A stretch of DNA of 21,283 bases from a virus: positions 1 to 21,283 of the IMG/VR virus record IMGVR_UViG_3300009496_002242; one strand, given 5' to 3'. This document shows positions 4,101 to 21,283 of the stretch, piece by piece; the first letter of the stretch is position 1; the number at the start of each line of letters is the position of its first letter. The notes under the pieces are model-generated. The model did not search any database. It worked only from the letters and a program-made list of their open reading frames with translations, and was not told the origin of the DNA. The position numbers and the translations under genes were made by a program.

Positions 4101-4743
4101 AATAGAGCGAGCATTACGTTGGCAAAGTTTAGTTAACTTAGGTAACCAAGTTAAACTAAAATGGAAAATTGACCACTATGCCGTTGAGCAACAATTAGAG
4201 CAGTTTAATGATAATTGGTGCCCGTATAATGCTAAGAAGGATACACACAATAATCGTTGGGGATTGCCTGTAACAAGCCATACTGGTGATGTTATGGACA
4301 ATTATCATTTGAACAGTTTTGGTCACATGCAAAAATATCATGATGTAGAAATGAAGGAAGAAAACTTTAATACACCTACAGAAGTTTATCATGCTATTCC
4401 TGAACTTAAAAGACTAGTAGATGTGTTTGCTCCTGATCTTGGCAGAGTACATTTACTACGTGTAGACCAAGGAGGCTTTTTCCCTCCACATAGAGATTTT
4501 CACGGAACTAGCCCAGAGTACTTTAGATTACTAACTGTATTTGGTCGTTGTAGTCCAGAAAACTATGTGCAGATGGTTGACGGTAAACCGTTGTATCCTG
4601 AAGCAGGATACGTGTATTTTACAAACTTTCAATTGGATCACAGTGTGTTTAGTTTCAGTGACAACTTATATAGTCTTATTTTAACAGTAAAATTAAATGA
4701 ACGTACACAAAATTTAGTACTAAACAATACGATGGCAGAATGA
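4087..4743 (+). CDS. 2OG-Fe(II) oxygenase-like protein
   Basis: A 218-residue protein whose second half has a cupin-type oxygenase pattern. RVHLLRVDQGGFFPPHRD gives a candidate HxD iron site (His135, Asp137), and the distal histidine is probably His185 in LDHSVFSF. Enzymes of this family use iron, O2 and 2-oxoglutarate to hydroxylate or desaturate a substrate. The arginine that usually follows the distal histidine and binds 2-oxoglutarate is not obvious here (SFSDNLYSL), so co-substrate use is less certain than in the other oxygenases of the window. GGAG before ATG 4087 supports the start. It sits between two radical SAM genes, overlapping the first by 14 bases and the second by 4 (ATGA). Confidence 0.7.
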   Translation: MEQHEIERALRWQSLVNLGNQVKLKWKIDHYAVEQQLEQFNDNWCPYNAKKDTHNNRWGLPVTSHTGDVMDNYHLNSFGHMQKYHDVEMKEENFNTPTEVYHAIPELKRLVDVFAPDLGRVHLLRVDQGGFFPPHRDFHGTSPEYFRLLTVFGRCSPENYVQMVDGKPLYPEAGYVYFTNFQLDHSVFSFSDNLYSLILTVKLNERTQNLVLNNTMAE

Positions 4744-6749: not shown

Positions 6750-7867
6750 GTTAAGTCCTTGTTAAATTTATAAACAGTACTAATTTTAGTAGTTATGTCG
6801 TAACCTATTACATGTACGGCATTATTATATAGTATAGGCCGACCAAACATTGTATCTTCGTAAAACTTTTTTTCGATTGTACCGTCTTCGTATACTTTAA
6901 TTATAGGGCATGACGGAGTGCCTGTTGGAAAAAAGAGTCCGTAGTTATCTACGCTAATTCCGGATCGATAACGATACTTTCCTCCGAAGTTTAATCCTAT
7001 ATCAAGTGAAATGCTTTGTTTAGTAATTAAATTAAAAATAACTCCGTAGTTACTGTTGTCATCATCCTCGTCTCCGTACGGTAATCCTATAATAGAATTA
7101 CCTACAACGATTTGTGTATTAAATTTTTTAGGAAAATCCGGAACATCTAGCGGGTATAATGTAAATTGGTGTGTGTCTGTGTCAAACTCGACTACGTCTG
7201 TTAGTCCTTCTGTTTCTCCATACGGCAAACTGTAAAGCTTGTTGTCAATCGGAACAATGTCAGTGAATTTTCTTGTTATACTGGCATCTACAGGAACTTT
7301 AAATGTTTCTAAATCAGTACCGTCAAATCCTAACAGATTTGTGTATCCGGGTTCGTCTCCGCGAGGCATACTCCAGTATCTTCCGTTACACCAAACAGTC
7401 CCCATATGAGCTTTAACATTTTCTGCGGTGTACTCAACGGTTTGAAGTCCGTATTTGTTGATGTATATGATATAGTTGGTTCCTTCGTATCCTAACGGAA
7501 AGCTACACGCTGAATTATTATTAGATGCTATGCTATAAAACTGTCCCTTGCCGGGTTTATCTATTGCATGATAAGTTGCACTAGTGTTGTTTAATTCTAC
7601 AATGATATTAAATTTGTCCCATATTCCGTACGGAATTAACCAAAGAGAATCATCAACTTGTGCTAATGCATTAAATTTACTAGTTACAGGCGGTAAGTCT
7701 AAATCAATGTACGATACAGATGTTCCTTCTAATACAGCTATTTTACTGTAATCTTTACATAACTCGGTTGCAAACGGTGGAGATATTAATTTTCCATTAT
7801 ATTCGTGTAATATTAAATGTTTAATTTCTAATTCTTTGTAAAAGTCTTGGAATGCTTTATATTTCAT
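6725..7867 (-). CDS. Beta-propeller-like repeat protein (PYG repeats)
   Basis: A 380-residue protein with no signal peptide or membrane segment. A motif of the form (L/I)(Y/W)x(L/M/I)P(Y/R/L)G recurs about every 44-51 residues: near 28, 75-81 (LWLIPYG), 120-125 (CSFPLG), 164-170 (YWSMPRG), 211-217 (LYSLPYG), 259-265 (IIGLPYG) and 310-316 (GLFFPTG), with a degenerate last copy near 350. Each copy is followed by a strand ending in an acidic or polar turn. This periodicity fits a seven- or eight-bladed beta-propeller. It resembles the next gene upstream (7857-9077), from which it probably arose by duplication. Propellers can be binding scaffolds, lyases or hydrolases, and no catalytic residues are evident. 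It overlaps its neighbours by 11 and 25 bases. Confidence 0.65.
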   Translation of the reverse strand: MKYKAFQDFYKELEIKHLILHEYNGKLISPPFATELCKDYSKIAVLEGTSVSYIDLDLPPVTSKFNALAQVDDSLWLIPYGIWDKFNIIVELNNTSATYHAIDKPGKGQFYSIASNNNSACSFPLGYEGTNYIIYINKYGLQTVEYTAENVKAHMGTVWCNGRYWSMPRGDEPGYTNLLGFDGTDLETFKVPVDASITRKFTDIVPIDNKLYSLPYGETEGLTDVVEFDTDTHQFTLYPLDVPDFPKKFNTQIVVGNSIIGLPYGDEDDDNSNYGVIFNLITKQSISLDIGLNFGGKYRYRSGISVDNYGLFFPTGTPSCPIIKVYEDGTIEKKFYEDTMFGRPILYNNAVHVIGYDITTKISTVYKFNKDLTCNTIAAL

Positions 7868-9077
7868 TTAAATTTATTACCTTTATTACTTTTTCTTTAA
7901 TGGTGTCAAAAATTAATACAGTTTGAAAACTATCACTCTCGCCATATGGAAATGCGTATATAACATCATTGACAATAACACATTGGTTGTATTTTTCAAT
8001 AGTAGTGTTGTCAGTAAAATATTTACTAACATCTATGGTATAACAAGAATCGTCTGCTGTGTCAACTACAAGAACTTCTGCTAGATCGCCTTGACTTTTC
8101 CAAGTTTCTTCTGGTTCGCAAACACACCCTCCTCTTGGAATGTAGTATATTTTACCCTGACTGTTTTCAGCACCGGCAAAGTACTTTTTACTTTCTTTGC
8201 CTATGCCTAAATCCTTTGTGTACCATGTATTGTTGTTAGCATCAACAATTAACATTTCGCTCCAATCCTCTTCGTGACCTGCTGGAGGAAAATAAATTTT
8301 ATTGTTACTTGCAACAGTGTGCGAATAATATTTTCTACTGGTAGCTTTTATGCCTGTGTGTTCAAATGTCCAACCGTTGTCGTACTTTGCTAACAGATCA
8401 AAATCATCATATTCACTATAAGGCGGAGCCCAAAGTTTATTACCTACCTTTGCCATAGTTGTAAACTTTTTATTGCAATATTTGTTTGTATCGTACTCCG
8501 TCCAATAATTAGATAAGTCAGTTAATGTGTATGTTTCCATATCACAGTCAAACTCTATAGCATAACTAAAATGTTTATCTAAACTTTCGCCTCTAGGCAA
8601 CCCGTAAATAGTATTTCCTATAAGTTGAGTTTGGTGCCACTTCTTTTCGTCGTCGGGTAAAATTCTTAATTCAATTTGTTTAACCCAGTTTGCATCTGTA
8701 TCTAATATTAATGCATAACTGTAAGGAGCGTGTTCTCCGTAAGGTAGAGCATATATTTTGTTTTTATAAACGTGACCCTGAATATATTTGCCTTGTCCGT
8801 CTATAGGAACTTCAATATATTGTATACTATTATCTTTAGTGTCTAATACTAGAATATTTTTCTCGTTATAAGGTAGCCAATATATTTTACTGCCTACTAC
8901 AATACCACGTTGCCATTTTTCGTAACAGTCTGATACTTCTAATGCAATCTTTTCAATAGAATATGTTTTAGGATCAATAACTAACATATAGTCTAAACTT
9001 TCGTTTAGTCCATAAGGCGGAACATATATTAATCCGTTATTCCCCACAGTAGGGTAACTAAATGCTTGTGGTGTCAT
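7857..9077 (-). CDS. Beta-propeller-like repeat protein (IYxxPYGE repeats)
   Basis: A 406-residue protein built almost entirely from about eight repeats of the form KIYxxPYGE...(L/V)x(V/F)D(T/A/C). Cores are at residues 15-23, 64-70, 107-114, 156-163, 213-221, 259-267, 308-316 and 371-379. The pattern of short strands with a DT turn is that of a beta-propeller. The seventh repeat carries an insertion with a CVCEPEETW segment. A strong site, AAGGA, stands 7-8 bases before ATG 9077, which lies 20 bases inside the kinase-like gene. It is a paralog of the adjacent 6725-7867 protein. Both sit between two twitch radical SAM genes, so they may bind, present or themselves be the substrate. This is inference only. 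Confidence 0.68.
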   Translation of the reverse strand: MTPQAFSYPTVGNNGLIYVPPYGLNESLDYMLVIDPKTYSIEKIALEVSDCYEKWQRGIVVGSKIYWLPYNEKNILVLDTKDNSIQYIEVPIDGQGKYIQGHVYKNKIYALPYGEHAPYSYALILDTDANWVKQIELRILPDDEKKWHQTQLIGNTIYGLPRGESLDKHFSYAIEFDCDMETYTLTDLSNYWTEYDTNKYCNKKFTTMAKVGNKLWAPPYSEYDDFDLLAKYDNGWTFEHTGIKATSRKYYSHTVASNNKIYFPPAGHEEDWSEMLIVDANNNTWYTKDLGIGKESKKYFAGAENSQGKIYYIPRGGCVCEPEETWKSQGDLAEVLVVDTADDSCYTIDVSKYFTDNTTIEKYNQCVIVNDVIYAFPYGESDSFQTVLIFDTIKEKVIKVINLNEI

Positions 9078-9531
9078 TTAAAAATCCTTCGAACTTCTCT
9101 CCAAATGCAGATTTTAAATCTAAATGCATTTTTATTATTGCTCCTTTTCTAGGAAACAAATTAATGTTATCCCAATCTATAAACACAACTTTATCATCTG
9201 GAGTAATAATCATATTACTTAAAACCCAGTCTCCGTGCGCATACGGTCTAGTCCTTTCTAGATCTTTAATACATGCAGAGTAAATCTTGTCAAAAAACTC
9301 TTGTGTATGATCAAACGTACTTGCTAGTTTTCCTTCTATAACATTCATTTTAAGAGTCATGCGATCTTTGTTACATGAATAGCTGTTAACTATCTCAGGT
9401 GCATATGTATTTAATAATTCAACATGTGCTTCTAGCCAGCTAGAGTCGCTAAAGTTCCATGATTTGTAATAAAATTCACCGTCAAAGTGTACCGAACGAA
9501 ATTTTGATTTATTTTCTTTAATTAAGACCAT
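9058..9531 (-). CDS. Minimal APH/choline-kinase-like phosphotransferase
   Basis: About 157 residues. AHGDWVLSN gives the catalytic loop (HGD near 99-101, metal-binding Asn106), and FIDWD gives the metal-binding aspartate (Asp119) of the aminoglycoside phosphotransferase and choline kinase fold. A candidate ATP lysine is in FYYKSW and a helix-C glutamate in LEAHVELL. The N-lobe is extremely short and no glycine-rich loop is obvious; usual members are 250-300 residues. It would phosphorylate a small molecule or sugar. The start is uncertain: ATG 9531 has AGAGG 12 bases before it, while an in-frame TTG at 9543 abuts the same AGAGG with no spacer. It overlaps the upstream radical SAM gene and the downstream propeller gene. 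Confidence 0.7.
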   Translation of the reverse strand: MVLIKENKSKFRSVHFDGEFYYKSWNFSDSSWLEAHVELLNTYAPEIVNSYSCNKDRMTLKMNVIEGKLASTFDHTQEFFDKIYSACIKDLERTRPYAHGDWVLSNMIITPDDKVVFIDWDNINLFPRKGAIIKMHLDLKSAFGEKFEGFLNDTTSI

Positions 9532-10558
9532 ATGCTTGTGCAACCTCTGGCAAGTAGTCTTTTATTTTTATATTTCTAAAATTATCTAATCTTGTAATTT
9601 TGTCTTTGAATACTTCTATTTGATTTGGATTAGGGTCGCCTTGTTCCCATCCGTTAGTATAAGTAAACAATTTTTTAAGATCATTGGGTGCATTTTGAAC
9701 ATTTAAATATTTAGGATTATCTAACTTATTATTTAGGTGAATAGTTAAATTTTCTGAGTCACACCAGTCAACTAATTCTTGCATGTATGGGGCATTTAAT
9801 ATGCTAATTGTTGGAGTTACACTAGTTAAAACACAATACTCTCTATATCTTTTGTAATTGTCTAAGATTTCGTTCCATTTGCTGCCGTATCGAATGTATT
9901 CAATTTTCTTTCCGATTGCATCAAAAGAAAACGCCATGTTTACAACTTTAAAACGTTTTAATAATTTTTCTAATTTATTATTATAAATTGTACCGTTAGT
10001 GTTAAATCTTACCATAACATCTGGATCTAAACGTTCTAACAGCTTAGGTAAATGCCTGACCATCATAGGTTCCCCGCCTGTAAGATATACTTCTTGTATA
10101 GGAAATTTAGTAATTTGTTGTATTGCTTCTTCACTAGCCCAGTTAAAATTAGGAACTTCTATTACATTATTAACCGGAGTAAGCCCTTGTTTTTGCATTT
10201 CTATAGCTTCTTCGGCAATACTGCTGCTGGACATTTCCCAGCAACTTATACATTTTAAGTTACAACTATTGCCAAATCTTATATCTAAGTGACTTATGCC
10301 TGGCCCGTATAACCGAGGCCTACTTCGCATACTTTCTAAACCGAGATCTTCATTCTTTTTACAAGTTATACACGCATTTGGCCATTCTCCTCGAGCAAAT
10401 GCTTCTCGGGCTTCTAAGTGAGTTTTGCTATTAAACCATTCTTGCGGAGTATGAGTTTTGATATTTTCTTTGTTGTTAGGTTCTGTACTAGCACAACAAA
10501 ATCGGTATTGCCCATCTGATCTTACACATAGTTGATGATCGAGATATTTGCATTTCAT
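9518..10558 (-). CDS. Radical SAM protein with N-terminal twitch domain
   Basis: A 346-residue protein and the first gene of the second block. Its N-terminal accessory cluster has Cys3 and Cys11, Cys21-Cys22, then Cys63 and Cys66 (CITC). The barrel motif CNLKCISC has Cys99, Cys103 and Cys106, followed by LTGGEP (GGEP at 161-164) and FNTNGT. It lacks the C-PW element of its two paralogs but keeps the order of domains. AAGGA upstream of ATG 10558 supports the start. Transcription probably begins in the divergent region 10559-10627. The reaction and substrate are unknown. Confidence 0.89.
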   Translation of the reverse strand: MKCKYLDHQLCVRSDGQYRFCCASTEPNNKENIKTHTPQEWFNSKTHLEAREAFARGEWPNACITCKKNEDLGLESMRSRPRLYGPGISHLDIRFGNSCNLKCISCWEMSSSSIAEEAIEMQKQGLTPVNNVIEVPNFNWASEEAIQQITKFPIQEVYLTGGEPMMVRHLPKLLERLDPDVMVRFNTNGTIYNNKLEKLLKRFKVVNMAFSFDAIGKKIEYIRYGSKWNEILDNYKRYREYCVLTSVTPTISILNAPYMQELVDWCDSENLTIHLNNKLDNPKYLNVQNAPNDLKKLFTYTNGWEQGDPNPNQIEVFKDKITRLDNFRNIKIKDYLPEVAQAYGLN

Positions 10559-10627
10559 TCTTTATATTATCCTTAAATGTTGTAAATAAATACTCATACA
10601 ATATATATATCTAAGGTAACGTAATTA
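10559..10627. promoter_or_regulatory. Divergent intergenic promoter region
   Basis: These 69 bases separate two divergent blocks and are the only non-coding stretch of this length between the left edge and 19715. They are very AT-rich and hold an alternating AT run at about 10601-10610. On the plus strand TTGTAA (10580-10585) lies 16 bases before TATATA (10602-10607), a possible sigma-70 early promoter. A late-promoter-like octamer overlaps it. Ribosome binding sites face both ways: AAGG before ATG 10628, and AAGGA before ATG 10558 on the minus strand. Confidence 0.5.
10581..10588 (+). promoter_or_regulatory. Possible T4-type late promoter (TGTAAATA)
   Basis: TGTAAATA differs at one position from the T4 late consensus TATAAATA. 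It lies about 40 bases before ATG 10628, leaving a leader of about 34 bases. The match is short and the DNA is AT-rich, so chance is possible. Confidence 0.35.
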
Positions 10628-11344
10628 ATGTCTCATAATGAATTAGAAGAATATCTAAAAACGCACTCAAAAGATTACAACTATAAGTACCCCGATATGT
10701 TTGATCCTAAATGGACTATAACAGAATCAGGATGGCCTTGGTTCCATTTAAGTTTACTTGATAATCAACCCTTTAAAGAAATGCATAAAGAAGCTGAAGC
10801 ATTGCTTGATGATTTTTATGTACATAGAGACGACTATGGAAAAGGGTGGAAAAGTTTAACAATACATGGTCTCGACAATGATACGCAGAGTCTTAACACG
10901 TATGGCGAGCGTAACGAAGTTCTTCAAAAATTAAATTGGACTCATGTGGCAGATAAGTGTCCTGTAACTAAAAAGTTTTTAACAGATGTTTGGCCTGCAG
11001 AATATTTAAATCGTGTGCGTTTTATGTTACTCGAACCAGGAGGATATATTCTGCCACATCAAGACAGACCTAGTGATCAAAAACGTTTAAGTGTGTGCAA
11101 CATAAGTCTTAATATGCCCGAAGGATGTGAAATGGTTATGAAAGATTTTGGTCGTGTTCCTTTTAAAGACGAAGGCAGTGCATTCTTAATGGACATTAGT
11201 AACGAACATGCAGTTATTAATAGAAGCAATAAGCCGAGAATACATATGATTATACATTACGAAATTGGCAGGCGATTACGTGATTTTTTCTATGTACTAA
11301 GAAGCAGTTACTACACAAATAGAGAAGACAATGAAAGATTATAA
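10628..11344 (+). CDS. Aspartyl/asparaginyl beta-hydroxylase-like 2OG-Fe(II) oxygenase
   Basis: A 238-residue protein. The segment RVRFMLLEPGGYILPHQD is typical of the Asp/Asn beta-hydroxylase (AspH) type, with HxD at His144 and Asp146. The distal histidine is His194 (NEHAVINRSN), and the 2-oxoglutarate arginine is Arg204 (KPRIHMIIHY). All expected cofactor residues are therefore present. It would hydroxylate a substrate using iron, O2 and 2-oxoglutarate. Despite the name, the phage substrate is not known to be a protein residue. It is the first gene of the third block and overlaps the next gene by 14 bases. Confidence 0.85.
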   Translation: MSHNELEEYLKTHSKDYNYKYPDMFDPKWTITESGWPWFHLSLLDNQPFKEMHKEAEALLDDFYVHRDDYGKGWKSLTIHGLDNDTQSLNTYGERNEVLQKLNWTHVADKCPVTKKFLTDVWPAEYLNRVRFMLLEPGGYILPHQDRPSDQKRLSVCNISLNMPEGCEMVMKDFGRVPFKDEGSAFLMDISNEHAVINRSNKPRIHMIIHYEIGRRLRDFFYVLRSSYYTNREDNERL

Positions 11345-12818
11345 CAGTTTATCTGATTCAGACAGATATTTTGATAGTTCGCAAATAGAAACATCTATCG
11401 GTGTAGGCATACTTGATCTTAGCAGAGATATTACAAATAACTTTGTTAGGAAAAAAACCTTCGACCTTACTTTTTGGATGATAAATCAAAGCTTACATCA
11501 AAATTTGTGTACGTACAGCGGCTTTAATTATAGTGTTAAACATTTACTAAACCAAAGTATACAGAATGGTAATAAAGTATGTATTATTCTAGCTCAGGGA
11601 ATAATGGCACCTAAGCTATATAGGATTCTAAAAAAGACCTCAGAATATTACATCGCTAATCCGGATTTCTTTGTAATGGGTCATATAATGGCTAAGCAGG
11701 ATCGCTATCCTGGGTTACATAGACAGATGCTAGTAGTTAATCTTGATAAGTGGGTAGAACTAGGTTCTCCTGAGTTTAACGAACAAGGGTTCTTTTGGGA
11801 TCGAAAAGAAGAATATAGTAACTATACTTTAAGTAAAGAAACACTCAGTGCAGATTATGCACCTGCATATATAGAAACTGCACCGGGAACACAAGTAGTA
11901 CACGTAGTAGAAGATGGTGCCAACTGGGTAGACATTGCTTGCAAGAATAATATTCGCATAGATAACTTTAGTTTTGAAATAAGAGATTGTAAGGCGTTTT
12001 TGTATCCGTATGACGATGCTGATAGATTAGAATATATTTGGAAAAATTTACAAGATGAAGAAGAAGTAGATAAAGTTGCAAATTACGCCCAACGAGCTTG
12101 GATACGCAAACTAGCATACCAGGAGCATATTGAAAAAGATCGCGTGTATGCGTACAACACCGAGCGTCTAAGCGGTGAAGGAGTAAGAAGTCCTGGACCA
12201 GTTGATGCTATTTTTAGTGCAGCCGCTGGCTTTAAAACAATGAAACTGTTAGATAATAATGGCTTTCACGAAAATACCGTTGTGACATATTATGATTGGT
12301 GTGATTCTAGTTTGCGTTTTAAACAACACTTACTTGAAACTTGGAATGGATTGGATTTTGACAAGTGGTTGCTCGAGCATGATTTAGAATACAACTTTAG
12401 TAGTACATATCGCGGAAACTACTTAGAGTTCTGGGAACAAGAAATACAAAAAGAATTCGGTAACAAAGAAGCATTTAAAGAATTATGGGACAGATATCGG
12501 CAATTAGAACATAAATTTATAGTTGTTAATCTTGTTAACGAACCGCAAAAACTATTTACTGAAATAAACAAGTATACTGGCAACAAGGTGTTATGGACTA
12601 CTAACATATGGCCTACACTTATGTTACATTGGAATGTAGATATTGATGAAATAGAACAAAAATATTTAGAGTTTGAAAAACTAGTACCGGATGACTTAGT
12701 ACTGTATGGTCAAGATTACTTAGCAATAGATTTACAAGATAGGATAAGACACAATAATAAACGAACACATCCTCGCTATTCTTCGACTAATAAATACGTA
12801 GTAAGATTGGAGGAATAA
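11331..12818 (+). CDS. Large protein of unknown function, possibly two-domain
   Basis: A 495-residue protein that I do not recognise. The N-terminal part has a hydrophobic strand KVCIILAQG (82-90), then FFVMGHI (113-119) and YPGLHRQMLVVNL (126-138), loosely like glycosyltransferase cores. The C-terminal part (about 290-440) has VDAIFSAAAGFKTM (291-304), VVTYYDWCDSSL (317-328), FIVVNLVNEPQ (396-406) and VLWTTNIWPT (420-429). This alternation of strands and helices could be a Rossmann-like fold of the methyltransferase type, but no clear SAM motif is present. There is no signal peptide or membrane segment. It sits between two oxygenase genes in a tightly coupled operon, so a role in the same pathway is likely. 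Confidence 0.75.
   Translation: MKDYNSLSDSDRYFDSSQIETSIGVGILDLSRDITNNFVRKKTFDLTFWMINQSLHQNLCTYSGFNYSVKHLLNQSIQNGNKVCIILAQGIMAPKLYRILKKTSEYYIANPDFFVMGHIMAKQDRYPGLHRQMLVVNLDKWVELGSPEFNEQGFFWDRKEEYSNYTLSKETLSADYAPAYIETAPGTQVVHVVEDGANWVDIACKNNIRIDNFSFEIRDCKAFLYPYDDADRLEYIWKNLQDEEEVDKVANYAQRAWIRKLAYQEHIEKDRVYAYNTERLSGEGVRSPGPVDAIFSAAAGFKTMKLLDNNGFHENTVVTYYDWCDSSLRFKQHLLETWNGLDFDKWLLEHDLEYNFSSTYRGNYLEFWEQEIQKEFGNKEAFKELWDRYRQLEHKFIVVNLVNEPQKLFTEINKYTGNKVLWTTNIWPTLMLHWNVDIDEIEQKYLEFEKLVPDDLVLYGQDYLAIDLQDRIRHNNKRTHPRYSSTNKYVVRLEE
12789..12796 (+). promoter_or_regulatory. Weak late-promoter-like octamer (AATAAATA)
   Basis: One mismatch to TATAAATA, inside the end of the upstream gene and 31 bases before the TTG start of the next. 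Such strings arise often in AT-rich DNA, so this is only a candidate. Confidence 0.2.
12809..12813 (+). promoter_or_regulatory. Strong ribosome binding site fixing a TTG start
   Basis: GGAGG lies six bases before TTG 12820, among the best sites in the window. It decides the start of the oxygenase gene, which has no ATG nearby. Confidence 0.7.
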
Positions 12819-12819
12819 A

Positions 12820-13548
12820 TTGTCTAATAAAATTATCAAAAACTATGACTCTGTTAATCACGGAATAACTCATAATTTCTTATACAATAATAATGACTGG
12901 GATATAATCGAACTTAATTATAACGTCGATAGTGCAAGACTTAAAGCATGGTGGAACAATATAAAAAAAGATTCTAGCCATTTGATCTTTAATTTTAATA
13001 ACATGTTTGAGAAGTTAGATGTTAATAAAAGTAAAGAAATGGTAGAACAGGGATATTGTGGATACTATTGCGGTCCTATAGACGGTGTTACTCTTGCGTG
13101 GCCGACTGAGCGATACGAGCCCCTTCCGCCGCCAGCACAATGTAATCCGGATATGTATCCAGAAGTTAATCGCGATACGTTCATTGATGATGCAAAGTTA
13201 CTACCTAAATTATATTTTGATTATTTTAAAGAGTTAGTTGAAGAATTGGGACATGATGCTTTTAGGCAAGCAATCGTCACTAGACATCATCCTAGTATGT
13301 ATATACGTCAACACATTGACAGTAAAGTACTTAAATTACATATCCCCATCGAGAGCAATGAAAATAGTTATTTTCATTTTGGTAAAGATAAAGAACGCTC
13401 ATATCATATGAAAGAAGGTAAAGCGTATATACTTAATACTGGAGATTGGCACGGAACAACTAACGAAACTCCAGATTATAGATCACACATCATTACGAGA
13501 ATAACCGAATCTCATATTTTAAAAGTTATAGGTATGACAAATGGATAG
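12820..13548 (+). CDS. 2OG-Fe(II) oxygenase-like protein (paralog 1 of the tandem set)
   Basis: A 242-residue protein beginning at TTG with a strong GGAGG. It has HxD at His165 and Asp167 (IRQHID), LKLHIPIESN after it, distal His211 (WHGTTN) and Arg221 (YRSHI), giving the complete iron and 2-oxoglutarate set. Ahead of the core is an AWPTERYEPLPPP segment that recurs in the next gene as TWPTARNVPLPPP and marks the subfamily. It shares the pattern H-D, HIPI, HxTTN, R with the three genes that follow, so the set arose by tandem duplication. Differences upstream of the core probably set substrate choice. The substrate is unknown. It overlaps the next gene by 8 bases. Confidence 0.8.
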   Translation: MSNKIIKNYDSVNHGITHNFLYNNNDWDIIELNYNVDSARLKAWWNNIKKDSSHLIFNFNNMFEKLDVNKSKEMVEQGYCGYYCGPIDGVTLAWPTERYEPLPPPAQCNPDMYPEVNRDTFIDDAKLLPKLYFDYFKELVEELGHDAFRQAIVTRHHPSMYIRQHIDSKVLKLHIPIESNENSYFHFGKDKERSYHMKEGKAYILNTGDWHGTTNETPDYRSHIITRITESHILKVIGMTNG

Positions 13549-14284
13549 AGTTTTACGACCTTCCCAAGTTGACTTGTCAGTTTTAGAAAGTTTGGAATGG
13601 GATATTATAATATTAGATAAAAAAATAGATGTTAAAAATTTACAATATTGGTATAATACCGTTACATCTAATTTAGACCATTTAAAATTTAACTTTCTAA
13701 CATGTCATGAGTATATAAAAGAATCTGTTAACGATAAATTTACTACTGATACAAATGATTACAAATGGGAACGTAGTAAAAAATATGAAGCATTAATCAA
13801 CTCGTGGACATTAACTTGGCCAACTGCTAGGAATGTGCCTCTTCCACCTCCTTGGGCTTCGGACTTAGAGTTTTTTACAGAATTAAAAACTCACTACGAC
13901 AATGACAATAATCTTGTAAAAGATTTTGAGTATAACAATAACATATATCTTACCCAATATAACTTTGGAGAATGGAAATCTATAGTAGAAGGAATAGGTA
14001 ACTATATTTACAATCCGCGTATTACACAACATATGCCTGAACTTATACTTTATCCTCATACAGACGGATACGGTGCTAGATTACACATTCCTATGACATA
14101 CGATAATAGTAAGTTTTACTGGGGAGAAGAATGGAATAGGGAATATAATTTTGAACCAGGAAACGTTTATATTATAAATTCAAGAGTTCCTCATTCTACT
14201 ACAAATTTTAGTCCTACGCCGAGAGCAAATATTATAGCAGACATACGTCTTGATAAATTTATGGATTTAGTAAACTGGAAATGA
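13541..14284 (+). CDS. 2OG-Fe(II) oxygenase-like protein (paralog 2)
   Basis: A 247-residue protein. HxD is at His173 and Asp175 (YPHTDG), followed by ARLHIPMTYDN. Distal His218 is in VPHSTTNF and Arg228 in TPRANI. The TWPTARNVPLPPP segment is shared with the preceding paralog. ATG 13541 overlaps the upstream stop by 8 bases, with AGG upstream. The last four bases form ATGA with the next gene. The lysine- and asparagine-rich middle (about 60-140) is the most divergent part of the set. It probably hydroxylates or desaturates a pathway intermediate; this is inference from family and context. Confidence 0.78.
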   Translation: MDRVLRPSQVDLSVLESLEWDIIILDKKIDVKNLQYWYNTVTSNLDHLKFNFLTCHEYIKESVNDKFTTDTNDYKWERSKKYEALINSWTLTWPTARNVPLPPPWASDLEFFTELKTHYDNDNNLVKDFEYNNNIYLTQYNFGEWKSIVEGIGNYIYNPRITQHMPELILYPHTDGYGARLHIPMTYDNSKFYWGEEWNREYNFEPGNVYIINSRVPHSTTNFSPTPRANIIADIRLDKFMDLVNWK

Positions 14285-14922
14285 AACGGTATATAGAAAC
14301 ACATGCTCCTATTGATTTAGGTTTCGACGTTAAACGCATTTTTTCCGTCGATATACAAAAGTTACAAAATTGGTATGACGATTTGCAAGAAAATTACAAA
14401 GATTGGAAATTTATTGTAGGAGAGAATCATCATGTGTGGCAGTTTCCAATTAGTGACCCTACCGGAGAGACTGGGCATATTATACCCGACGAAACAGGTT
14501 ACTATACATTATGTTGGAACAGTGACGAAGAAGGTCCTAAACCTTTCGAACAAGGTTGTGCTAAACCAGAGTATAGAGACAATGACAACGACGAATTAAA
14601 TCCACGCAAATGCTTTACAGGATACGGGTTAGAACTTGTAAACAAATTGCCTTTTAGGAGTAAAAAATGGTTAGTAACTGAGCACGTTCCTGGCACTAAA
14701 TTAATTACACACCAAGATAGCCCTGATAAAATTAGAGTACACATTCCTATACATACTAATAAAGATAGTAATTGGATTATAGACGGTATAGAGTATCACA
14801 TGGAGCCAGGATGGGCATACTTAGTTAATACAACTTTGCCGCATAGTGTAGAAAATAACGGAAAAACAAATAGAGTACACTTATATGGAAAGGTTTGGAC
14901 TGAGGATATAAAAAATGATTAA
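14281..14922 (+). CDS. 2OG-Fe(II) oxygenase-like protein (paralog 3)
   Basis: A 213-residue protein with HxD at His144 and Asp146 (ITHQD), IRVHIPIHTN, distal His188 (LPHSVENNG) and Arg198 (TNRVHLYGK). Its N-terminal half differs from paralogs 1 and 2 and lacks their LPPP segment. The distal motif H-S-V-E-N-N-G-K-T-N-R-V-H-L is closest to those of the double-domain protein at 15333-16505 (GDTDRIHL, GSTDRIHL), so it may be the nearest single-domain relative of that fusion. The start overlaps the preceding stop (ATGA), and the end overlaps the phosphatase-like gene by 8 bases. Confidence 0.8.
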   Translation: MKRYIETHAPIDLGFDVKRIFSVDIQKLQNWYDDLQENYKDWKFIVGENHHVWQFPISDPTGETGHIIPDETGYYTLCWNSDEEGPKPFEQGCAKPEYRDNDNDELNPRKCFTGYGLELVNKLPFRSKKWLVTEHVPGTKLITHQDSPDKIRVHIPIHTNKDSNWIIDGIEYHMEPGWAYLVNTTLPHSVENNGKTNRVHLYGKVWTEDIKND

Positions 14923-15340
14923 CGTAAAAACATATGCAATGAAAGATGTACATCCTATTCCGAGCAACGAATATCTTATCGGTATAACTAGTAATGGTAA
15001 TTGGATTCATTCTAACCCTGTTATGAAAGATGCAATAAACGTATTAAATTTAAAATTTGAAGATGTTGAAAAGTCAGGGCTAAAAGTAATCCAATGGTTT
15101 AACAATACTCAGAGAATAATATACGCTAGTATTTGTAGCGTCAATCAAGCAAAGCAGATTGTAGATTTTATACGTAAAATTCCAAAAAATGCAACACTGC
15201 ATGTATATTGTGCAAAAGGACAGTCGAGGAGTGTTGCTGTTGCTAACTATGTTAGAAAGTATTACAATAACGAAATAATAGACGACAGTAGTCATAACAA
15301 ACATGTTTATAGTTTATTAGAAAGGTATCATAATGCTTGA
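14915..15340 (+). CDS. Cys-based (dual-specificity/tyrosine type) phosphatase-like protein
   Basis: A 141-residue protein with the CX5R signature LHVYCAKGQSRSVAVANYV: nucleophile Cys99, phosphate-binding loop AKGQS and Arg105, followed by the usual helix. The residue before Cys is Tyr, where classical family members have His. The preceding region (QAKQIVDFIRKIP) fits the helix before the active-site strand. A general-acid aspartate is not clearly identifiable. Such small enzymes remove phosphate from proteins, RNA 5' ends or small molecules. Given the kinase-like gene at 9058-9531, a phosphorylated intermediate in the pathway is possible. GAGGA stands nine bases before ATG 14915. It is embedded between oxygenase genes in the same operon. 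Confidence 0.7.
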   Translation: MINVKTYAMKDVHPIPSNEYLIGITSNGNWIHSNPVMKDAINVLNLKFEDVEKSGLKVIQWFNNTQRIIYASICSVNQAKQIVDFIRKIPKNATLHVYCAKGQSRSVAVANYVRKYYNNEIIDDSSHNKHVYSLLERYHNA

Positions 15341-16505
15341 TTTTGATGTTAAAGAATTGCCTAATCTTAAATTTTCTATGCAGGATTTAACAACATACTA
15401 TAATGAAGTTAAAACACATGAAACACTAAAATGGACTCCTAAAGATACAGACACATTAAATCATAATGTTAACGGAATATATAGTTGGGCTATACAAAGT
15501 AATTTAAAGGATGCTACAAAGCCTTGTCCACCGTATGACATTAAACATGATGATACTGTTTTGGGAACATTTGATAATCCTACAGATTTAATATTTGGGT
15601 TTGGCAAGTATATTGTAGATGCAATACCAAATGTTAGACAAACAGTTATAAGTGCGCATCCTCCAGAAACTGTTATTCAACAGCATATAGATAACACAGA
15701 ATACGTAAAAGTTCACATACCAATTGAAACAAATCCTAAAAGTTATTTTTCTTTTGGTGATACTAACTATACTTTAAAAGTAGGAAAAGCATACCTTATT
15801 AATACAACCCGTCCTCACGGCACTAACAATAGTGGTGATACTGATAGGATTCATCTAATATTTAAAATACCTATAAACAGTGTAGATGAACTACTTAACA
15901 CAGAGTGGATATTAGATCCAGCCCAAATAAACTTTGATTGTAAAAGAATAGAAAATATAAAATTTAATTTTAATGAATTAAAAGAATACTATGCTGATCT
16001 TGTAGATAATTTTGATTACTTAAAATGGACAATGTCAGAAGTTACAGGAACTAATCTAGAAGGATTATACGGTTATGGTATACTAACTAATTGTGAAAAT
16101 GTAGACGAGCGTCCGTTGCCTCCAGGTATGCGCAAACATAAAAAAATATTTGATCCTATTACAAAGCCTACTAAAATGCTTAAAGGATTTGCTAAAAAAT
16201 TATACGATCAAATTCCTTATATAGAAGAATTAGTTATTACCGGACATCCGCCTAATTCTGGAATACCTCTTCATGCAGATAAAGATGAGCATGTAAGAGT
16301 GCATATTCCGTTGTATGCTAACAACTATTCGTATTTTATTATTAACGACCACTCGTATGTATTAGAACCTAGCAATGTTTACATTGTTAATACAAAACGT
16401 ATACACACTACATTTAACAAAGGTTCTACAGACAGAATCCATTTACATTTTAAAATCCCTATTGGAAAAATAAATAATTTTCTAAAAACGGATATAAAAA
16501 TATGA
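15333..16505 (+). CDS. Tandem double-domain 2OG-Fe(II) oxygenase-like protein
   Basis: A 390-residue protein made of two copies of the oxygenase unit seen singly in the three genes upstream. Domain 1 has His118, Asp120, His162 and Arg172 (QQHID, HIPIETN, PHGTNN, DRIHLIFKI). Domain 2 has His314, Asp316, His358 and Arg368 (PLHAD, HIPLYAN, IHTTFN, DRIHLHFKI). Every catalytic residue is exactly 196 residues from its partner, so the duplication kept its register. Both domains appear competent. It might perform two successive oxidations or act as a built-in dimer. The start ATG 15333 has AAGG at seven bases and overlaps the phosphatase-like gene. The end forms ATGA with the halogenase start. Confidence 0.85.
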   Translation: MLDFDVKELPNLKFSMQDLTTYYNEVKTHETLKWTPKDTDTLNHNVNGIYSWAIQSNLKDATKPCPPYDIKHDDTVLGTFDNPTDLIFGFGKYIVDAIPNVRQTVISAHPPETVIQQHIDNTEYVKVHIPIETNPKSYFSFGDTNYTLKVGKAYLINTTRPHGTNNSGDTDRIHLIFKIPINSVDELLNTEWILDPAQINFDCKRIENIKFNFNELKEYYADLVDNFDYLKWTMSEVTGTNLEGLYGYGILTNCENVDERPLPPGMRKHKKIFDPITKPTKMLKGFAKKLYDQIPYIEELVITGHPPNSGIPLHADKDEHVRVHIPLYANNYSYFIINDHSYVLEPSNVYIVNTKRIHTTFNKGSTDRIHLHFKIPIGKINNFLKTDIKI

Positions 16506-17716
16506 AAAGTATAATAGTAGTTGGTGGAGGCACAGCAGGCTGGATGTCTGCGGCTTATTTTTCAAAAAAAGGCTTTAGTGTTACATTAATCGAAAGTCCG
16601 AGTATACCAATAATAGGTGTAGGCGAAAGCACAGTGCCTGCAATGACGTCTTTCTGTCAAACACTTGGACTAGACGAAAACACTTGGATGGACCAAGTAA
16701 ACGCTATACATAAACTAGGAATTTGTCATTCAGGCTGGAAAAAAGGATCTACAATTGACTGGTGGCATTGGTTTGAATACGATAGAACTAAACAAGAAAG
16801 TAGACACGAATATTTAAAAAACGACGCCCTACCAAGTTCTACTTTAGAATATGCTTATCATATTGATGCTGTTAAATTTGGTAATATTGTTTGCAAACCT
16901 GTAGCACTTGAAAATAGTTGTGTACATATAGTTGATGATGTAGTAGAAGTATTAACTGACTATAGCGGCATTAAAGGGTTACAAACAAAAAGTAACGGTA
17001 CTCTAGTTGCAGATTTTTATATAGACTGTACAGGGTTTCGAAAAGTTCTTGCATCTGCACTAGATATTAAGTATAATAAATTTGAACATGTTATTAATGA
17101 TAGTGCTATTGCTTGTCAACAAGAACCGTTAGATACTCCTGCAAAATATACGTTAACAAGAAAAATGAATGCAGGCTGGAATTGGGAAATAGCATTGCAA
17201 AATCGTCGAGGAGCAGGATATGTATATAGTAGTAAGTTTATAAGTGATGAAGATGCTATTAAAGAATATGTTTCTTTATATCCGGACACTAACAAAGATA
17301 AGTTGCGGGTTTTAAAATTTAACCCAGAATATACCGAAACGCCTATCTATAAAAATTGTGCTCTTATTGGCCTTAGTTCAGGATTTTTAGAACCTTTAGA
17401 AGCAACATCTATTTGGCTCATACAATATTTTATCGAAGGAACACATGCTATAATAAAAGATAACAGAAGTCCCAAAGTATTTAATAAAGCTCAGTTAAAA
17501 ATAATGAAAGAAATACACTATTTCATATTGTGTCATTATACTTTATCCGATCACGATGACACTGAATATTGGAAATATTATAAAAATCTTGAAAAACAAT
17601 TAAATACAAAAGAGTATGTAAAAATAAAATCTAAAGAGAAAGATGGCAATCCAACAAAATATAATAAGTTTTTTCACCCCTACAGCTGGTGGAGCATGAA
17701 TAAATTTTTAAACTAA
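16502..17716 (+). CDS. Flavin-dependent tryptophan halogenase-like protein
   Basis: A 404-residue protein. The N-terminal FAD-binding motif is VGGGTAGW (residues 7-14), and GVGEST is at 39-44. A catalytic-lysine motif gives Lys71 (KLGICHSGW). The family signature WxWxI appears as GWNWEI (225-230), and GYVYSS follows at 239-244. FLEPLE (295-300) holds the catalytic glutamate Glu300. In the family, FADH2 and O2 make hypochlorite or hypobromite that is passed to lysine. Two deviations are seen: the proline after WxWxI is Ala231, and the serine after PLE is Ala301. It is shorter than bacterial enzymes such as PrnA (about 540 residues). Related genes occur in marine T4-like phages. No flavin reductase is in the window, so reduced flavin would come from the host. 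It ends the third block. Confidence 0.88.
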   Translation: MKSIIVVGGGTAGWMSAAYFSKKGFSVTLIESPSIPIIGVGESTVPAMTSFCQTLGLDENTWMDQVNAIHKLGICHSGWKKGSTIDWWHWFEYDRTKQESRHEYLKNDALPSSTLEYAYHIDAVKFGNIVCKPVALENSCVHIVDDVVEVLTDYSGIKGLQTKSNGTLVADFYIDCTGFRKVLASALDIKYNKFEHVINDSAIACQQEPLDTPAKYTLTRKMNAGWNWEIALQNRRGAGYVYSSKFISDEDAIKEYVSLYPDTNKDKLRVLKFNPEYTETPIYKNCALIGLSSGFLEPLEATSIWLIQYFIEGTHAIIKDNRSPKVFNKAQLKIMKEIHYFILCHYTLSDHDDTEYWKYYKNLEKQLNTKEYVKIKSKEKDGNPTKYNKFFHPYSWWSMNKFLN

Positions 17717-18262
17717 TCTCCATTGCTTATAAGCGTTGACATTAATTTTCCATAATCTTTGTTCGGTATACATGTAATAAAAGTTACCGTCAACTAATTC
17801 CATAATGCCCAACTGTTCTGCTTTAGGATTAAACACTTTGTCTATTACAGAACTTTTTCCATTTATTTGTTCTTTATTACTAGTTAAGTAAAACTCAGCA
17901 TTTGGATTTAACGATAATATAAAGTCTATTTGTTGATTAAGTGTAACTGTAAATTGCCAACTGTTTTTTAATCCACCTCGTGATGTAACATGTTTTGGTA
18001 ATACAGCACCTCTAAACAAGCACCTATAAGCGTTCTTGTTTAGTTCTGGCATTTGATGTACACCTGCCAAATTAAAAATGTACCCATCTATTTCACCTAT
18101 AAAGAATTGTCCATAGGGCATCTTCATTTGATCTAATTTAATGTCTTTAAATGTGCTATTATTTTTGTAACCTAAATCTCTACACTTGTTACAAAACTCT
18201 TGTAGAATTGCATAATCGGTATTTTTTAATTTTCTAAAAGTTATTCTTCCATGTTTTTCCAT
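17708..18262 (-). CDS. Possible GNAT-family acetyltransferase
   Basis: A 184-residue protein. It starts ITFRKLKNTDYAILQEF, the strand-helix opening typical of GNAT enzymes. Then come QFFIGEIDGYIFNLAGVHQ (52-70) and YRCLFRGAVLPKH (79-91), resembling the central strands with a SRGGLKNSW loop where acetyl-CoA would bind, and a late EQLGIMELVDGNFYYMY (149-165). No canonical Q/RxxGxG/A loop is present, so the assignment is tentative. ATG 18262 lies 29 bases inside the AMP-binding gene and has AAGGA nine bases before it. The 3' end overlaps the halogenase gene by 9 bases in convergent orientation. It is the last of three co-directional genes that together suggest acyl-group chemistry. Confidence 0.6.
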   Translation of the reverse strand: MEKHGRITFRKLKNTDYAILQEFCNKCRDLGYKNNSTFKDIKLDQMKMPYGQFFIGEIDGYIFNLAGVHQMPELNKNAYRCLFRGAVLPKHVTSRGGLKNSWQFTVTLNQQIDFILSLNPNAEFYLTSNKEQINGKSSVIDKVFNPKAEQLGIMELVDGNFYYMYTEQRLWKINVNAYKQWRLV

Positions 18263-18902
18263 TAGGAGAAATCCTTCTATGTGAGAATGTCATTGTTTGT
18301 GTGTCAAAGATATCACCTGTAGCTCTCCCATTTATTATTGCTTCGCCTAAAGAGGATGTTGCTGTTACAGGTTGAAACATTATATGATCGTCTGTTGGTC
18401 GATTGTGCAAATCAAAACTAGGACTATCATAACCTATAAGAATAGGTGGCGGATACTCTGTCATACCGTACCAGTTTGCTACACACTGTACACCTCTATT
18501 TTTAAATGCATCTATAAAGTCTTGATCTATTGTATTACTACCTGTTACCATGTAACGTACACAACTCATATCTAAGTCTTTAAAGCCTTTTGTACTTTGT
18601 AAAAGCTCTAAATGACGAGGTATAAGCGCAATATAAGAAGGTTGTAAGCGTTTAAATGCTTGTATGTACGTATATGGTGTAAAGTTGCTACAAACGTACT
18701 GTGCGCCGCTTAAAACGCTAGGATACGCTGTTATAGTCCAGTGTGCAATAGTATTAGCAGGAAACACATCTAGTACAATGTCTTTGCTAGTTAGTTGTAT
18801 TTCCTTAGCACTACGTCTAGCACATTTATTAATGTATTCCCAAGAATGTGTTATTTGTTTAGGTTCGTCTGTACTACCTGATGTATAGAGTGTTATGCTC
18901 AT
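18234..18902 (-). CDS. Truncated AMP-binding (ANL adenylation) domain protein
   Basis: A 222-residue protein holding only the central part of an acyl-CoA synthetase or adenylation enzyme. The phosphate-binding loop is at the very N-terminus (LYTSGSTDEPKQITHS, 5-20). AVxxxP-type strands follow (YIALIPRHLELL, 90-101), then WYGMTEYPP (144-152, the A5 motif) and ATGDIFDT (194-201, the A7 motif). The chain stops after HRRISPNGKTW (208-218), about where the hinge to the C-terminal subdomain would be. Normal members are about 500 residues, so the first ~150 residues and the C-terminal ~120 with its catalytic lysine are absent. It could form acyl-adenylates only, or work with another protein. It overlaps the SGNH-like gene by 4 bases. 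Confidence 0.78.
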   Translation of the reverse strand: MSITLYTSGSTDEPKQITHSWEYINKCARRSAKEIQLTSKDIVLDVFPANTIAHWTITAYPSVLSGAQYVCSNFTPYTYIQAFKRLQPSYIALIPRHLELLQSTKGFKDLDMSCVRYMVTGSNTIDQDFIDAFKNRGVQCVANWYGMTEYPPPILIGYDSPSFDLHNRPTDDHIMFQPVTATSSLGEAIINGRATGDIFDTQTMTFSHRRISPNGKTWKNNF

Positions 18903-19714
18903 GGTAGTCTATCCTTTAATACATCTGCTGTATGTTTATGTACACCTATACCTGGATGGCCTGATATAGTACCGTTTTGTTTACAAATATCTCTAGCAAA
19001 TTTTTCATTAATGTCTTCGATACCTAGTAAGTCTATATTAATGCGTATAATAGGCAAAGTAGTAGGAAAGTAACTAAACATAGTTAATGGTATGTTGTTA
19101 GTCTTACAAAATACTTCTAACATGTTTACATATATTTCTGCTTCGTTTTGTAAGAAGTCAGTACGTTCTAGTAATTCATAAGGTTCTACATATTTGCATT
19201 TAGGCCTATGACTGCCAGTAAATGTAAAAGCAAAATGATCTGTAAAAAATGTATATCCGTGTGCAGGCGGAAATTCAAAACATGCACTTTTTGGAGCACC
19301 GTGTAAGTTTACATAATTAAAAAATGATATAACTTGTATTTTAGTGCTATATGTAGGACCAGCATAACTTAGCATAGGTGTGTCTAGTTCGTTGGATAAT
19401 ATATCAGTATATCTATCTTTTTCATCTATGCCAACGCCTAACGTATAACTTGTACCACTGAAGTAAATTAAATCTTTAGTTAAATCTACTTCAGTAGTCA
19501 TACGCAATCCTAAACTATTAAAGTTGTAATTAATTTGTTTGTCATTGTATATCCAGCTACTGTCTTGGTATTTTTTATTACGTTCGTGTAGACTTTCGCT
19601 ATCAGAACCCAAATAACTAAAGCTTGTATTAGGAATCATACTGTCGTGCTGATACGGCCAATCAGTCTTTTTGTAAGGAATACAAGTATTCAATCTTGTT
19701 TTAATATTAGCCAT
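18899..19714 (-). CDS. SGNH/GDSL hydrolase-like protein
   Basis: A 271-residue protein. Block I is YFSGTSYTLGVG (84-95), with candidate nucleophile Ser89 after a hydrophobic strand. A SYAGPTYS segment (116-123) may be the oxyanion block, and SGHPGIGVHKHTA (251-263) supplies the C-terminal histidine. The usual acid of the DxxH motif is not conserved (residue 250 is Ile), so activity is uncertain. SGNH enzymes cleave or move acyl groups on sugars and lipids. There is no signal peptide. A clear ribosome binding site is missing before ATG 19714, and translation may be coupled to the small reading frame that ends 8 bases inside it. It is followed by the ANL and GNAT-like genes. Confidence 0.7.
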   Translation of the reverse strand: MANIKTRLNTCIPYKKTDWPYQHDSMIPNTSFSYLGSDSESLHERNKKYQDSSWIYNDKQINYNFNSLGLRMTTEVDLTKDLIYFSGTSYTLGVGIDEKDRYTDILSNELDTPMLSYAGPTYSTKIQVISFFNYVNLHGAPKSACFEFPPAHGYTFFTDHFAFTFTGSHRPKCKYVEPYELLERTDFLQNEAEIYVNMLEVFCKTNNIPLTMFSYFPTTLPIIRINIDLLGIEDINEKFARDICKQNGTISGHPGIGVHKHTADVLKDRLP

Positions 19715-19787
19715 TATATGTTATATGTGTTTCGCTTTTTAATAGTCGATCTACAGCGTCATTTGACGGATCAGAGTGTAGCAACAC
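19707..19787 (-). CDS. Possible micro-ORF, GTG start, 26 residues
   Basis: Directly after the TAA of the 15-codon ORF, and in the same frame, GTG opens 26 codons ending at TAA 19707-19709, with an 8-base overlap of the next gene. The 8-base overlap repeats the spacing used between several genes of the window. The ribosome binding site is weak. It may be the second half of a 42-codon gene split by a stop codon, or not translated. Confidence 0.25.
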   Translation of the reverse strand: MLLHSDPSNDAVDRLLKSETHITYNG

Positions 19788-19835
19788 TTATTCATCATTG
19801 CCGTAATTTTCTAGATCTGTAATTAATTTTGTCAT
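19788..19835 (-). CDS. Possible micro-ORF, 15 residues
   Basis: ATG 19835 is preceded by AAGGAG at a seven-base spacing, one of the best ribosome binding sites in the window. It opens MTKLITDLENYGNDE followed by TAA. The reading frame continues after the stop for 26 more codons. The site itself is inside the terminator hairpin. The product is too short to assign. Confidence 0.35.
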   Translation of the reverse strand: MTKLITDLENYGNDE

Positions 19836-19881
19836 AAAAAAACTCCTTCAATGTATTTACACATTGCTAAGGAGTTTTTTT
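19836..19881. terminator. Bidirectional hairpin terminator that also sequesters a ribosome binding site
   Basis: AAAAAAACTCCTT (19836-19848) and AAGGAGTTTTTTT (19869-19881) pair over 13 bases. Inside, CAATGT (19849-19854) pairs with ACATTG (19861-19866), leaving a six-base loop and a two-base bulge. The A-tract and T-tract make it work in either direction. It stands 16 bases after the fibre gene stop, so it would end that transcript. On the minus strand its 3' arm contains AAGGAG followed by T7 and ATG 19835. Confidence 0.85.
19854..19861 (-). promoter_or_regulatory. Possible late promoter at the hairpin loop (TGTAAATA)
   Basis: On the minus strand TGTAAATA spans the loop, with one mismatch to TATAAATA. 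By T4 spacing, transcription would begin near 19848, exactly at AAGGAG. Such a transcript lacks the pairing arm and leaves the ribosome binding site free. Confidence 0.4.
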
Positions 19882-19896
19882 GTATTTGTGACTAGT

Positions 19897-21123
19897 TTAG
19901 TTTAAGTCTACCCAAGCACTTCCGTCATACCCTTGGAACTTAGGATTACCTGCACCGTCGCCGTCTGTTAAGAAAACCATCATACCTGCTACTGGTGTTG
20001 TAATTGCTGCATCTCGGGCTGTAGCGTCAGCATAAGTACCAGGAGTAATTACCGGAGCAGTAAACCCTACTTCTCTAGATAGTCTTGCTTGATAAATGTT
20101 TGCAGGATTAGGACCGTCGAGTAACAAAAATCTAAGATCGCCTTGATTAAACGTAGTATCATTGTCGCCTAATTGTTCTAACACAGATGTAATCATTGAT
20201 GATATAGCAATCTCTCCAGAGATATCAGTTCTTTCTGTACTAAATCTAAGTTGACCTAGACTGTCTCCAACACCTACACTATTGTAATCGCTGTATAAAC
20301 TAGAGCTATCATGAGAGGTTAACGAAAGTGAAGGACCTTGAGACACACCAGATCCTGGGCCTCTAATCACTAAAGCAGGGTCTTGTGACGATGTTATAAT
20401 TTCAACTGCTTGACTTGTGAGGTTCGAACCATCAATAAATGCTTTTCTTTCGGTTAAAATTTCACCGGTAATAATACCAGATACACCGTCTACTAATAAT
20501 GTACTATCGTCGGCAAATACGCTGCCTCTTACATCGCCGTCTACGTTACCGAATACTTGTCCTGTATGTATACCAAATGTATTGATTGCTATTGAGCCAT
20601 CGTCATCAGTTGCTGTTGCTAAAGCTTCGTCGATACTTTTTGGAACAAAGTTAAAACCGTCATATTGTAGTACATCCCAAGTTGCTACGTTATCAGTGTT
20701 TACGTTATCTAAATCATTTAGTGTAAGCGCACCAACTTCTGGCAGCGTAGTTGGTTCCCACCTGTTAGTTCCGGACAAGTAAGTTAGAACTTGATTATTT
20801 TCTACGACATCAGTGTTTACGTTATTTAAATCATTTAGATTTAGTGCTCCGACGCCCGGAACTGCAAGTGCTTCCCATTTGTTAGTTCCTCCATTAAATG
20901 TTAGCACATCATTGTTTGCAGCACCAGTTAAATCAGTATCAGTTAGTGCATCTAGTGTTGTAGAGCCTCCACCACCGCCTGAACCTGTAACTAATGTACC
21001 TCCAGCAGTAGTACCATCGCCGACATATAGCAACTTGGTGTCAGTAGTGTAAATTAGTTCACCCTCTACAGGTGTTATTAGCAAGCGCTCTGCATCTGTG
21101 CCGCGTCTTAGACGTAATGCCAT
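19897..21123 (-). CDS. Phage tail-fibre/appendage structural protein
   Basis: A 408-residue protein. The N-terminus MALRLRRGTDAERLLITPVE, then GELIYTTDTKLLYVGDGTT, is the attachment-type domain common in marine T4-like phage fibre and appendage proteins. A glycine linker (about 47-53) follows, then three degenerate units of about 39 residues (57-94, 95-133, 134-163) of the form LNDLxNVNTD...VLTYxxGTNxWEP. A variable, glycine- and serine-rich central part leads to a tip ending AGMMVFLTDGDGAGNPKFQG plus YDGSAWVDLN, also typical of marine phage fibres. There is no signal peptide or membrane segment, as expected for a virion protein. A perfect late promoter and AGGAG precede the ATG, and a hairpin terminator follows. 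It is probably part of the host-recognition apparatus. Confidence 0.85.
   Translation of the reverse strand: MALRLRRGTDAERLLITPVEGELIYTTDTKLLYVGDGTTAGGTLVTGSGGGGGSTTLDALTDTDLTGAANNDVLTFNGGTNKWEALAVPGVGALNLNDLNNVNTDVVENNQVLTYLSGTNRWEPTTLPEVGALTLNDLDNVNTDNVATWDVLQYDGFNFVPKSIDEALATATDDDGSIAINTFGIHTGQVFGNVDGDVRGSVFADDSTLLVDGVSGIITGEILTERKAFIDGSNLTSQAVEIITSSQDPALVIRGPGSGVSQGPSLSLTSHDSSSLYSDYNSVGVGDSLGQLRFSTERTDISGEIAISSMITSVLEQLGDNDTTFNQGDLRFLLLDGPNPANIYQARLSREVGFTAPVITPGTYADATARDAAITTPVAGMMVFLTDGDGAGNPKFQGYDGSAWVDLN
20692..20720. repeat. Direct repeat copy A within fibre gene
   Basis: A 29-base segment matches 20809-20837 with one mismatch, 117 bases (39 codons) away. It encodes the LNDLxNVNTD core of the fibre repeats. 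Confidence 0.8.
20809..20837. repeat. Direct repeat copy B within fibre gene
   Basis: Partner of 20692-20720. The near identity at DNA level suggests recent duplication or gene conversion between fibre repeat units. Confidence 0.8.
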
Positions 21124-21152
21124 GTGTATACTCCTAGAATATCTATTACTAG

Positions 21153-21160
21153 TATTTATA
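21153..21160 (-). promoter_or_regulatory. T4-type late promoter
   Basis: On the minus strand TATAAATA followed by CTAGT is an exact match to the T4 late consensus. It lies 29 bases before the fibre ATG, with AGGAG between, and fits late expression of a virion gene by a sigma-gp55-like system. Confidence 0.8.
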
Positions 21161-21183
21161 CATTTTTAAAGATAACCTAGGAT

Positions 21184-21283
21184 CTATTTCCGTTTCTTCA
21201 TAAAAGATCTTGTACGTTTTTTAACATCGTCAACTACTTTTGATGTGTTTAGTCTAAAATCTACATGATCGATATCATCATTA
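21184..21283 (-). CDS. Unknown protein, C-terminal fragment
   Basis: The minus strand is open from the window edge to TAG at 21184-21186 and encodes about 32 residues ending VVDDVKKRTRSFMKKRK. The end is strongly basic. The 5' part lies outside the window. It is co-directional with the fibre gene and probably belongs to the same structural region, but no function can be assigned from so short a piece. Confidence 0.55.
   Translation of the reverse strand, partial: NDDIDHVDFRLNTSKVVDDVKKRTRSFMKKRK

Follow-up and report, generated by a model that had tools for sequence, protein, structure and literature searches.

The window analysed here is a 21,283-base virus fragment from IMG/VR (record IMGVR_UViG_3300009496_002242, positions 1-21,283), whose source is a T4-like and probably marine phage. 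In it, a fibre-like gene is followed by a short hairpin, by a start codon that opens a remnant reading frame and by a set of overlapping genes (Table 1). A reading of this DNA made from the letters alone (the sequence-only reading) had labelled the latter SGNH, ANL and GNAT. The AMP-binding label was confirmed with Pfam, and the SGNH and GNAT labels found no match there even at E = 1. The region from the fibre gene to the SGNH-like gene gave no DNA match among 50,697 phage records. Positions 134-17716 hold a metabolic island with radical SAM/SPASM proteins, an aspartyl hydroxylase-like protein and a tryptophan halogenase, a gene set that resembles a peptide-modification cluster.

Table 1. Coordinates of the hairpin and its flanking features in the window
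Feature	Positions	Strand	Remarks
Exact late-promoter octamer TATAAATA upstream of fibre gene	21153..21160	-	Same octamer also upstream of many fibre-gene homologues (L130-L147, L157, L161)
Fibre-like gene, Mtd_N domain at N-terminus, upstream of hairpin	19897..21123	-	ORF of 408 aa; Pfam PF18454 Mtd_N, E 1.1e-9
5' outer arm: A7 (19881-19875) and CTCCTT (19874-19869), anti-Shine-Dalgarno	19869..19881	-	Same CTCCT in all 5 distinct homologous hairpins
Inner stem, 5' arm CAATG	19862..19866	-	Covaries with 19849-19853
8-nt loop TGTAAATA, late-promoter-like octamer, G at -12	19854..19861	-	Loop of relatives GTTAAATA; TAAATAC invariant
Inner stem, 3' arm CATTG, predicted -5 to -1	19849..19853	-	Covariation
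AAGGAG, Shine-Dalgarno (SD) and 3' outer arm; predicted transcript start 19848	19843..19848	-	T4 octamer begins at -13 (numbering of PMC2988020)
T7, terminator U-tract and SD-to-ATG spacer	19836..19842	-	Invariant in 12 relatives
15-codon remnant ORF, MTKLITDLENYGNDE and stop, from ATG 19835	19788..19835	-	Ancestral first 11 codons fused in frame to C-terminal part; TAA for TGG of relatives
Once C-terminal coding sequence; frame open from the GTG that follows TAA without a gap	19707..19787	-	Stop overlaps next ATG
Downstream gene, earlier label SGNH	18899..19714	-	No Pfam match; 90-93% identical in relatives
AMP-binding (ANL-like) gene	18234..18902	-	Pfam PF00501, E 7.8e-19
Third gene of overlapping set, earlier label GNAT	17708..18262	-	ORF; no Pfam match

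The sequence-only reading took AAGGAG as the ribosome binding site of ATG 19835. The ATG and its spacing are present, and the frame that it opens is the remnant only. In the relatives (twelve contigs), the place of the remnant is taken by a 255-256-aa gene that starts with MTK(L/I)ITDPQNY and, in the contigs where it was followed to its end, finishes with ...NHG(N/D)(D/E)EW(V/I)LLHSDPSNDAVDRLLKSETHITYNG and a stop. The window retains the first 11 codons and then the last stretch from GNDE on. With both termini in frame, the middle missing and TAA standing for TGG, the window's gene has lost more than 200 internal codons and acquired a stop.

The 256-aa protein has two relatives among the proteins of the window (26-27% identity, E 2e-15 and 2e-23), and no similar protein was found among 50,697 phage records. 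Since Pfam gives it no name, calling it oxygenase-like is a guess from its resemblance to the neighbouring cluster, of which one member matches aspartyl/asparaginyl hydroxylase (Pfam). In relatives, the stop of the 256-aa gene overlaps the ATG of the SGNH-like gene. This overlap is kept in the window, which together with the GTG directly after the TAA makes coupled translation through the remnant into the downstream genes possible.

Fold and covariation of the hairpin

On the minus strand, the hairpin reads A7-CTCCTT-ag-CAATG-(TGTAAATA)-CATTG-AAGGAG-T7-ATG. The AAGGAG/CTCCTT pairing had been proposed for positions 19835-19881, and it is indeed found there, with a predicted RNA fold of -19.2 kcal/mol, where shuffled sequences average -4.6 (z = -6.5) and none of 200 is as stable. 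The pattern CTCCTT-N(3-30)-AAGGAG occurs once in the whole window, at this hairpin.

A homologous hairpin was found at the same place, between the end of the fibre-like gene and the next start codon, in 12 of 12 viral contigs. The comparison covers five distinct sequences, window included. When the window and the four distinct relatives were folded, all gave a stable stem followed by a U-tract (z from -3.6 to -6.6), with AGGAG paired with CTCCT in every predicted fold.

The inner stem is CAATG/CATTG in the window, TGTAG/CTACA in L263 and L268, TGCAG/CTGTA in L266 and CGTAG/CTACA in L274. Pairing holds in 24 of 25 cells, against a maximum of 13 in slid registers, a count made with a one-base window gap set by hand at the bulge before AAGGAG, where MAFFT puts the gap inside the stem. 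Four of the five inner pairs changed on both sides between the window and its relatives, and the 5' inner arm of the window pairs with the 3' arms of the relatives at only 1-2 positions. Thus the relatives keep the stem through compensatory changes, which was one of the two checks named in the sequence-only reading. As for the outer CTCCT/AGGAG stem, it shows no variation among the compared hairpins and is therefore uninformative by itself.

The other check was conservation of the loop octamer, and its outcome is mostly in favour as well. TAAATAC, AAGGAG, T7, ATG and their spacing are invariant across the compared hairpins. The loop has 8 nt both in the window (TGTAAATA) and in the four distinct hairpins of the relatives (GTTAAATA), and as an octamer it is non-standard when measured against the T4 consensus, the deviating positions being -12 (window) and -13/-12 (relatives).

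The loop octamer and late transcription

The octamer lies between the 5' arm and the SD and keeps the TAAATAC core. TGTAAATA matches 7 of the 8 positions of the late consensus TATAAATA, which agrees with the single mismatch claimed earlier. One-mismatch octamers are found by the dozens in the window, on both strands, so that such a match alone is weak evidence. In terms of placement, TGTAAATA ends 5 nt before AAGGAG, and T4-type spacing therefore puts the predicted start at 19848, at AAGGAG and without the pairing arm, just where the sequence-only reading had placed it. A late start there would drop the 5' arm and retain the SD. The distance from octamer end to AAGGAG is 5-6 nt in the window and relatives, and TAAATA falls 4-7 nt before AAGGAG in approximately 0.7% (0.5-1.1%) of shuffled hairpin interiors.

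The lineage has a clear NATAAATA late-promoter motif. Of the 29 ATAAATA sites in the 152-kb relative G001, 18 lie upstream of genes, where 0.9 would be expected (p = 3e-20). Its standard NATAAATA late leaders most often have a motif-to-ATG distance of 18-19 nt; the octamer of the hairpin is 18 nt from the ATG in the window and 19 nt in the relatives. The 3' half of the L266 hairpin, GTTAAATACTGTATAAGGAGTTTTTTTATG, is very similar to GATAAATACTGTAACAAGGAGTTTTACATG, which is one of the standard late leaders in G001. Furthermore, this relative (the window itself is a fragment) encodes a gp55 homologue at 147274-148152, with E 2.5e-7 to T4 gp55 and 47% identity to annotated late sigma factors of Pseudomonas phages. 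The NATAAATA late motif has also been reported for the marine cyanophage S-PM2 (PMC2984593).

Neither TGTAAATA nor GTTAAATA has the A at -12 that is typical of late promoters in this lineage. In G001, the -12 variants [GTC]TAAATA are found 17 times in sense and 0 times in antisense orientation (p = 0.001). This bias was not replicated in four other contigs (26/10 vs 125/56), and tolerance at -12, seen in G001 only, was rejected as a lineage rule. A precedent for deviation is Aeromonas phage Aeh1, whose late promoters differ at -13/-12 (a/gC for TA) and are otherwise like the T4 consensus (PMC2988020). Given the non-standard -12 and the unreplicated tolerance, we only infer that the loop octamer acts as a late promoter.

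Related hairpins in other viral contigs

Hairpins in which CTCCTT and AAGGAG arms enclose the exact octamer TATAAATA are widespread among viral contigs. Among the matches listed, 66 of 90 distinct ones stand before an open ORF; with a permuted octamer, the fraction is 15 of 40. A close sibling, CTCCTTTACGG-TATAAATA-CTGTAAAGGAG-TTTTT...ATG, with a T5 tract, is present in L019, L021 and L028, and in the last it precedes a gp5-like baseplate gene. Few of the hairpins with SD, T7 and ATG in direct succession carry an octamer in their loop.

Some other arrangements were also seen. In L023, L042, L049, L050, L065, L087 and L088, genes that look divergent are separated by a single hairpin in which TATAAATA can be read on either strand. 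Such a stem-loop could lock both directions and act as late promoter for both, and genomes of 165-172 kb are among the cases. Unrelated hairpins with an SD inside a terminator (CTCCTT...AAGGAGTTTTTTTATG), differing stems and a recurrent loop GTTAAA(C/T)A were found in L169, L193, L207 and L216, before short genes that by eye look like P2/Mu-type tail chaperones.

The leader of the fibre gene also has a predicted fold (window 21121-21200, minus strand), with the exact TATAAATA between pairing CCTAGG and CTAGG(AG). L161 carries a strong version of it (GAGATATC/GATATCTC, -25 kcal/mol). This lock hairpin is predicted in the window, L130, L134, L137 and L161, and it was rejected as a general feature because its SD-pairing part is not conserved in other relatives.

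A proposed terminator combined with a locked leader

In T4, early transcripts of gene e need to be silenced (PMC3014915). The lock of genes e and soc had been invoked as a precedent for the hairpin, correctly so according to the literature (PMC3014915, PMC2988022). As in the e and soc leaders, the SD is in the 3' arm, a late-type octamer lies between the 5' arm and the SD, and the predicted late transcript lacks the 5' arm. Unlike them, the hairpin here is flanked by A7 and U7 in a terminator-like way, its octamer, which deviates at -12, occupies the 8-nt loop of a stem that covaries, and the gene upstream is itself under a late promoter. The same lock with release by a late promoter is found in the leaders of T4 I-TevI and segB and of Aeh1 mobE (PMC2988022). 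Those are homing endonuclease genes, several of them inside early or middle units, whereas here an oxygenase-like gene and other metabolic-type genes are concerned.

The hairpin is also like an intrinsic (Rho-independent) terminator, with a stem, a flanking A-tract and U7 shortly after a stop codon. It differs from one in having few G-C pairs, in holding an SD and a late-type octamer and in being followed immediately by an ATG. It was not listed by a simple terminator scanner (continuous stem, loop of 3-8) run on the window. Sister phages without the hairpin (L134, L141, L148, L150) have ordinary intrinsic terminators directly after the fibre gene, which suggests that the site may first have served for termination and have gained promoter and lock afterwards.

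We consider, with moderate confidence, that the hairpin is best explained as an intrinsic terminator and a T4-type locked leader in one. Transcripts of the fibre gene would fold the hairpin and most would stop at the U7 tract, and in read-through RNA the AAGGAG would be paired with CTCCTT and poorly translated. On the DNA, the loop octamer, NNTAAATA(C), would be the recognition site of a gp55-type late RNA polymerase, with initiation at about 19848. The result would be a 13-nt leader, AAGGAGTTTTTTT-AUG, which should be open since the pairing arm is absent. In relatives, this would drive the gene of the 256-aa protein and, after it, the SGNH-like gene. With the first gene cut to its remnant in the window, ribosomes would have to reach the downstream genes by coupling through it. 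Points against the locked-leader reading are the non-standard octamer, the late promoter of the upstream gene, the small set of five distinct hairpins and a locked start codon that in the window leads to the remnant only. The purpose of the hairpin is probably more than a simple block of early expression.

A rather unlikely explanation is a plain intrinsic terminator of the fibre transcript whose 3' arm doubles as an SD through compaction, with the octamer as an AT-rich coincidence that a few relatives inherited and the downstream genes expressed by read-through or from a promoter elsewhere. The conserved U7 and upstream A-tract fit it, as do the terminators of the sister phages, which carry neither SD nor octamer, and the many unrelated phages with SD-in-terminator hairpins and T7-ATG, mostly without octamer. 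Against it stand a TAAATAC core that stays unchanged while the flanking stem changes by compensation, and an octamer placement that fits the spacing of late leaders and is as infrequent in shuffled interiors as given above.

Much less probable is a strict timing lock of the e/soc type with no terminator role, where early or middle transcripts from far upstream stay silent until the loop promoter fires. Its architecture fits the gene e and soc leaders (PMC3014915, PMC2988022), but a U7 tract points to termination and away from tolerated read-through, and a late promoter stands before the adjacent upstream gene both in the window (21160) and in G001, where GATAAATA precedes the homologue of the fibre gene (at 77439). 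Messages that enter the hairpin are thus probably late already, which leaves a timing lock with no obvious target. For the same reason the claim that the hairpin restricts the downstream genes to late infection is not supported. Finally, a loop read as RNA, with a RegA-like or other protein binding UAAAUAC and repressing translation or protecting the mRNA, is very improbable: an invariant loop on a covarying stem is the usual signature of a protein-bound RNA hairpin, and such an operator is described for T4 gp43 (PMC3014915), but the loop matches a late-promoter DNA motif with correct spacing, no loop-binding protein is known here and the hairpin has no Rfam match.

Within the merged terminator and locked leader, we tentatively propose that one hairpin was selected for three jobs: it would end the upstream late transcript, hide the SD and present a divergent late promoter, NNTAAATAC, as its loop, and it would have outlived the deletion of the first gene. 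With the promoter placed as the 8-nt loop, late initiation would both bypass the terminator and unlock the SD.

This hairpin is probably a known T4 switch in a compact form, which related phages have kept despite a non-standard start signal. If this is true, the logic of e and soc, known from a handful of T4-type genes, extends to uncultured T4-like phages and their metabolic genes, with the lock merged with a terminator in about 46 nt. The hairpin pattern would then allow late-controlled operons of uncultured phages to be recognised from sequence.
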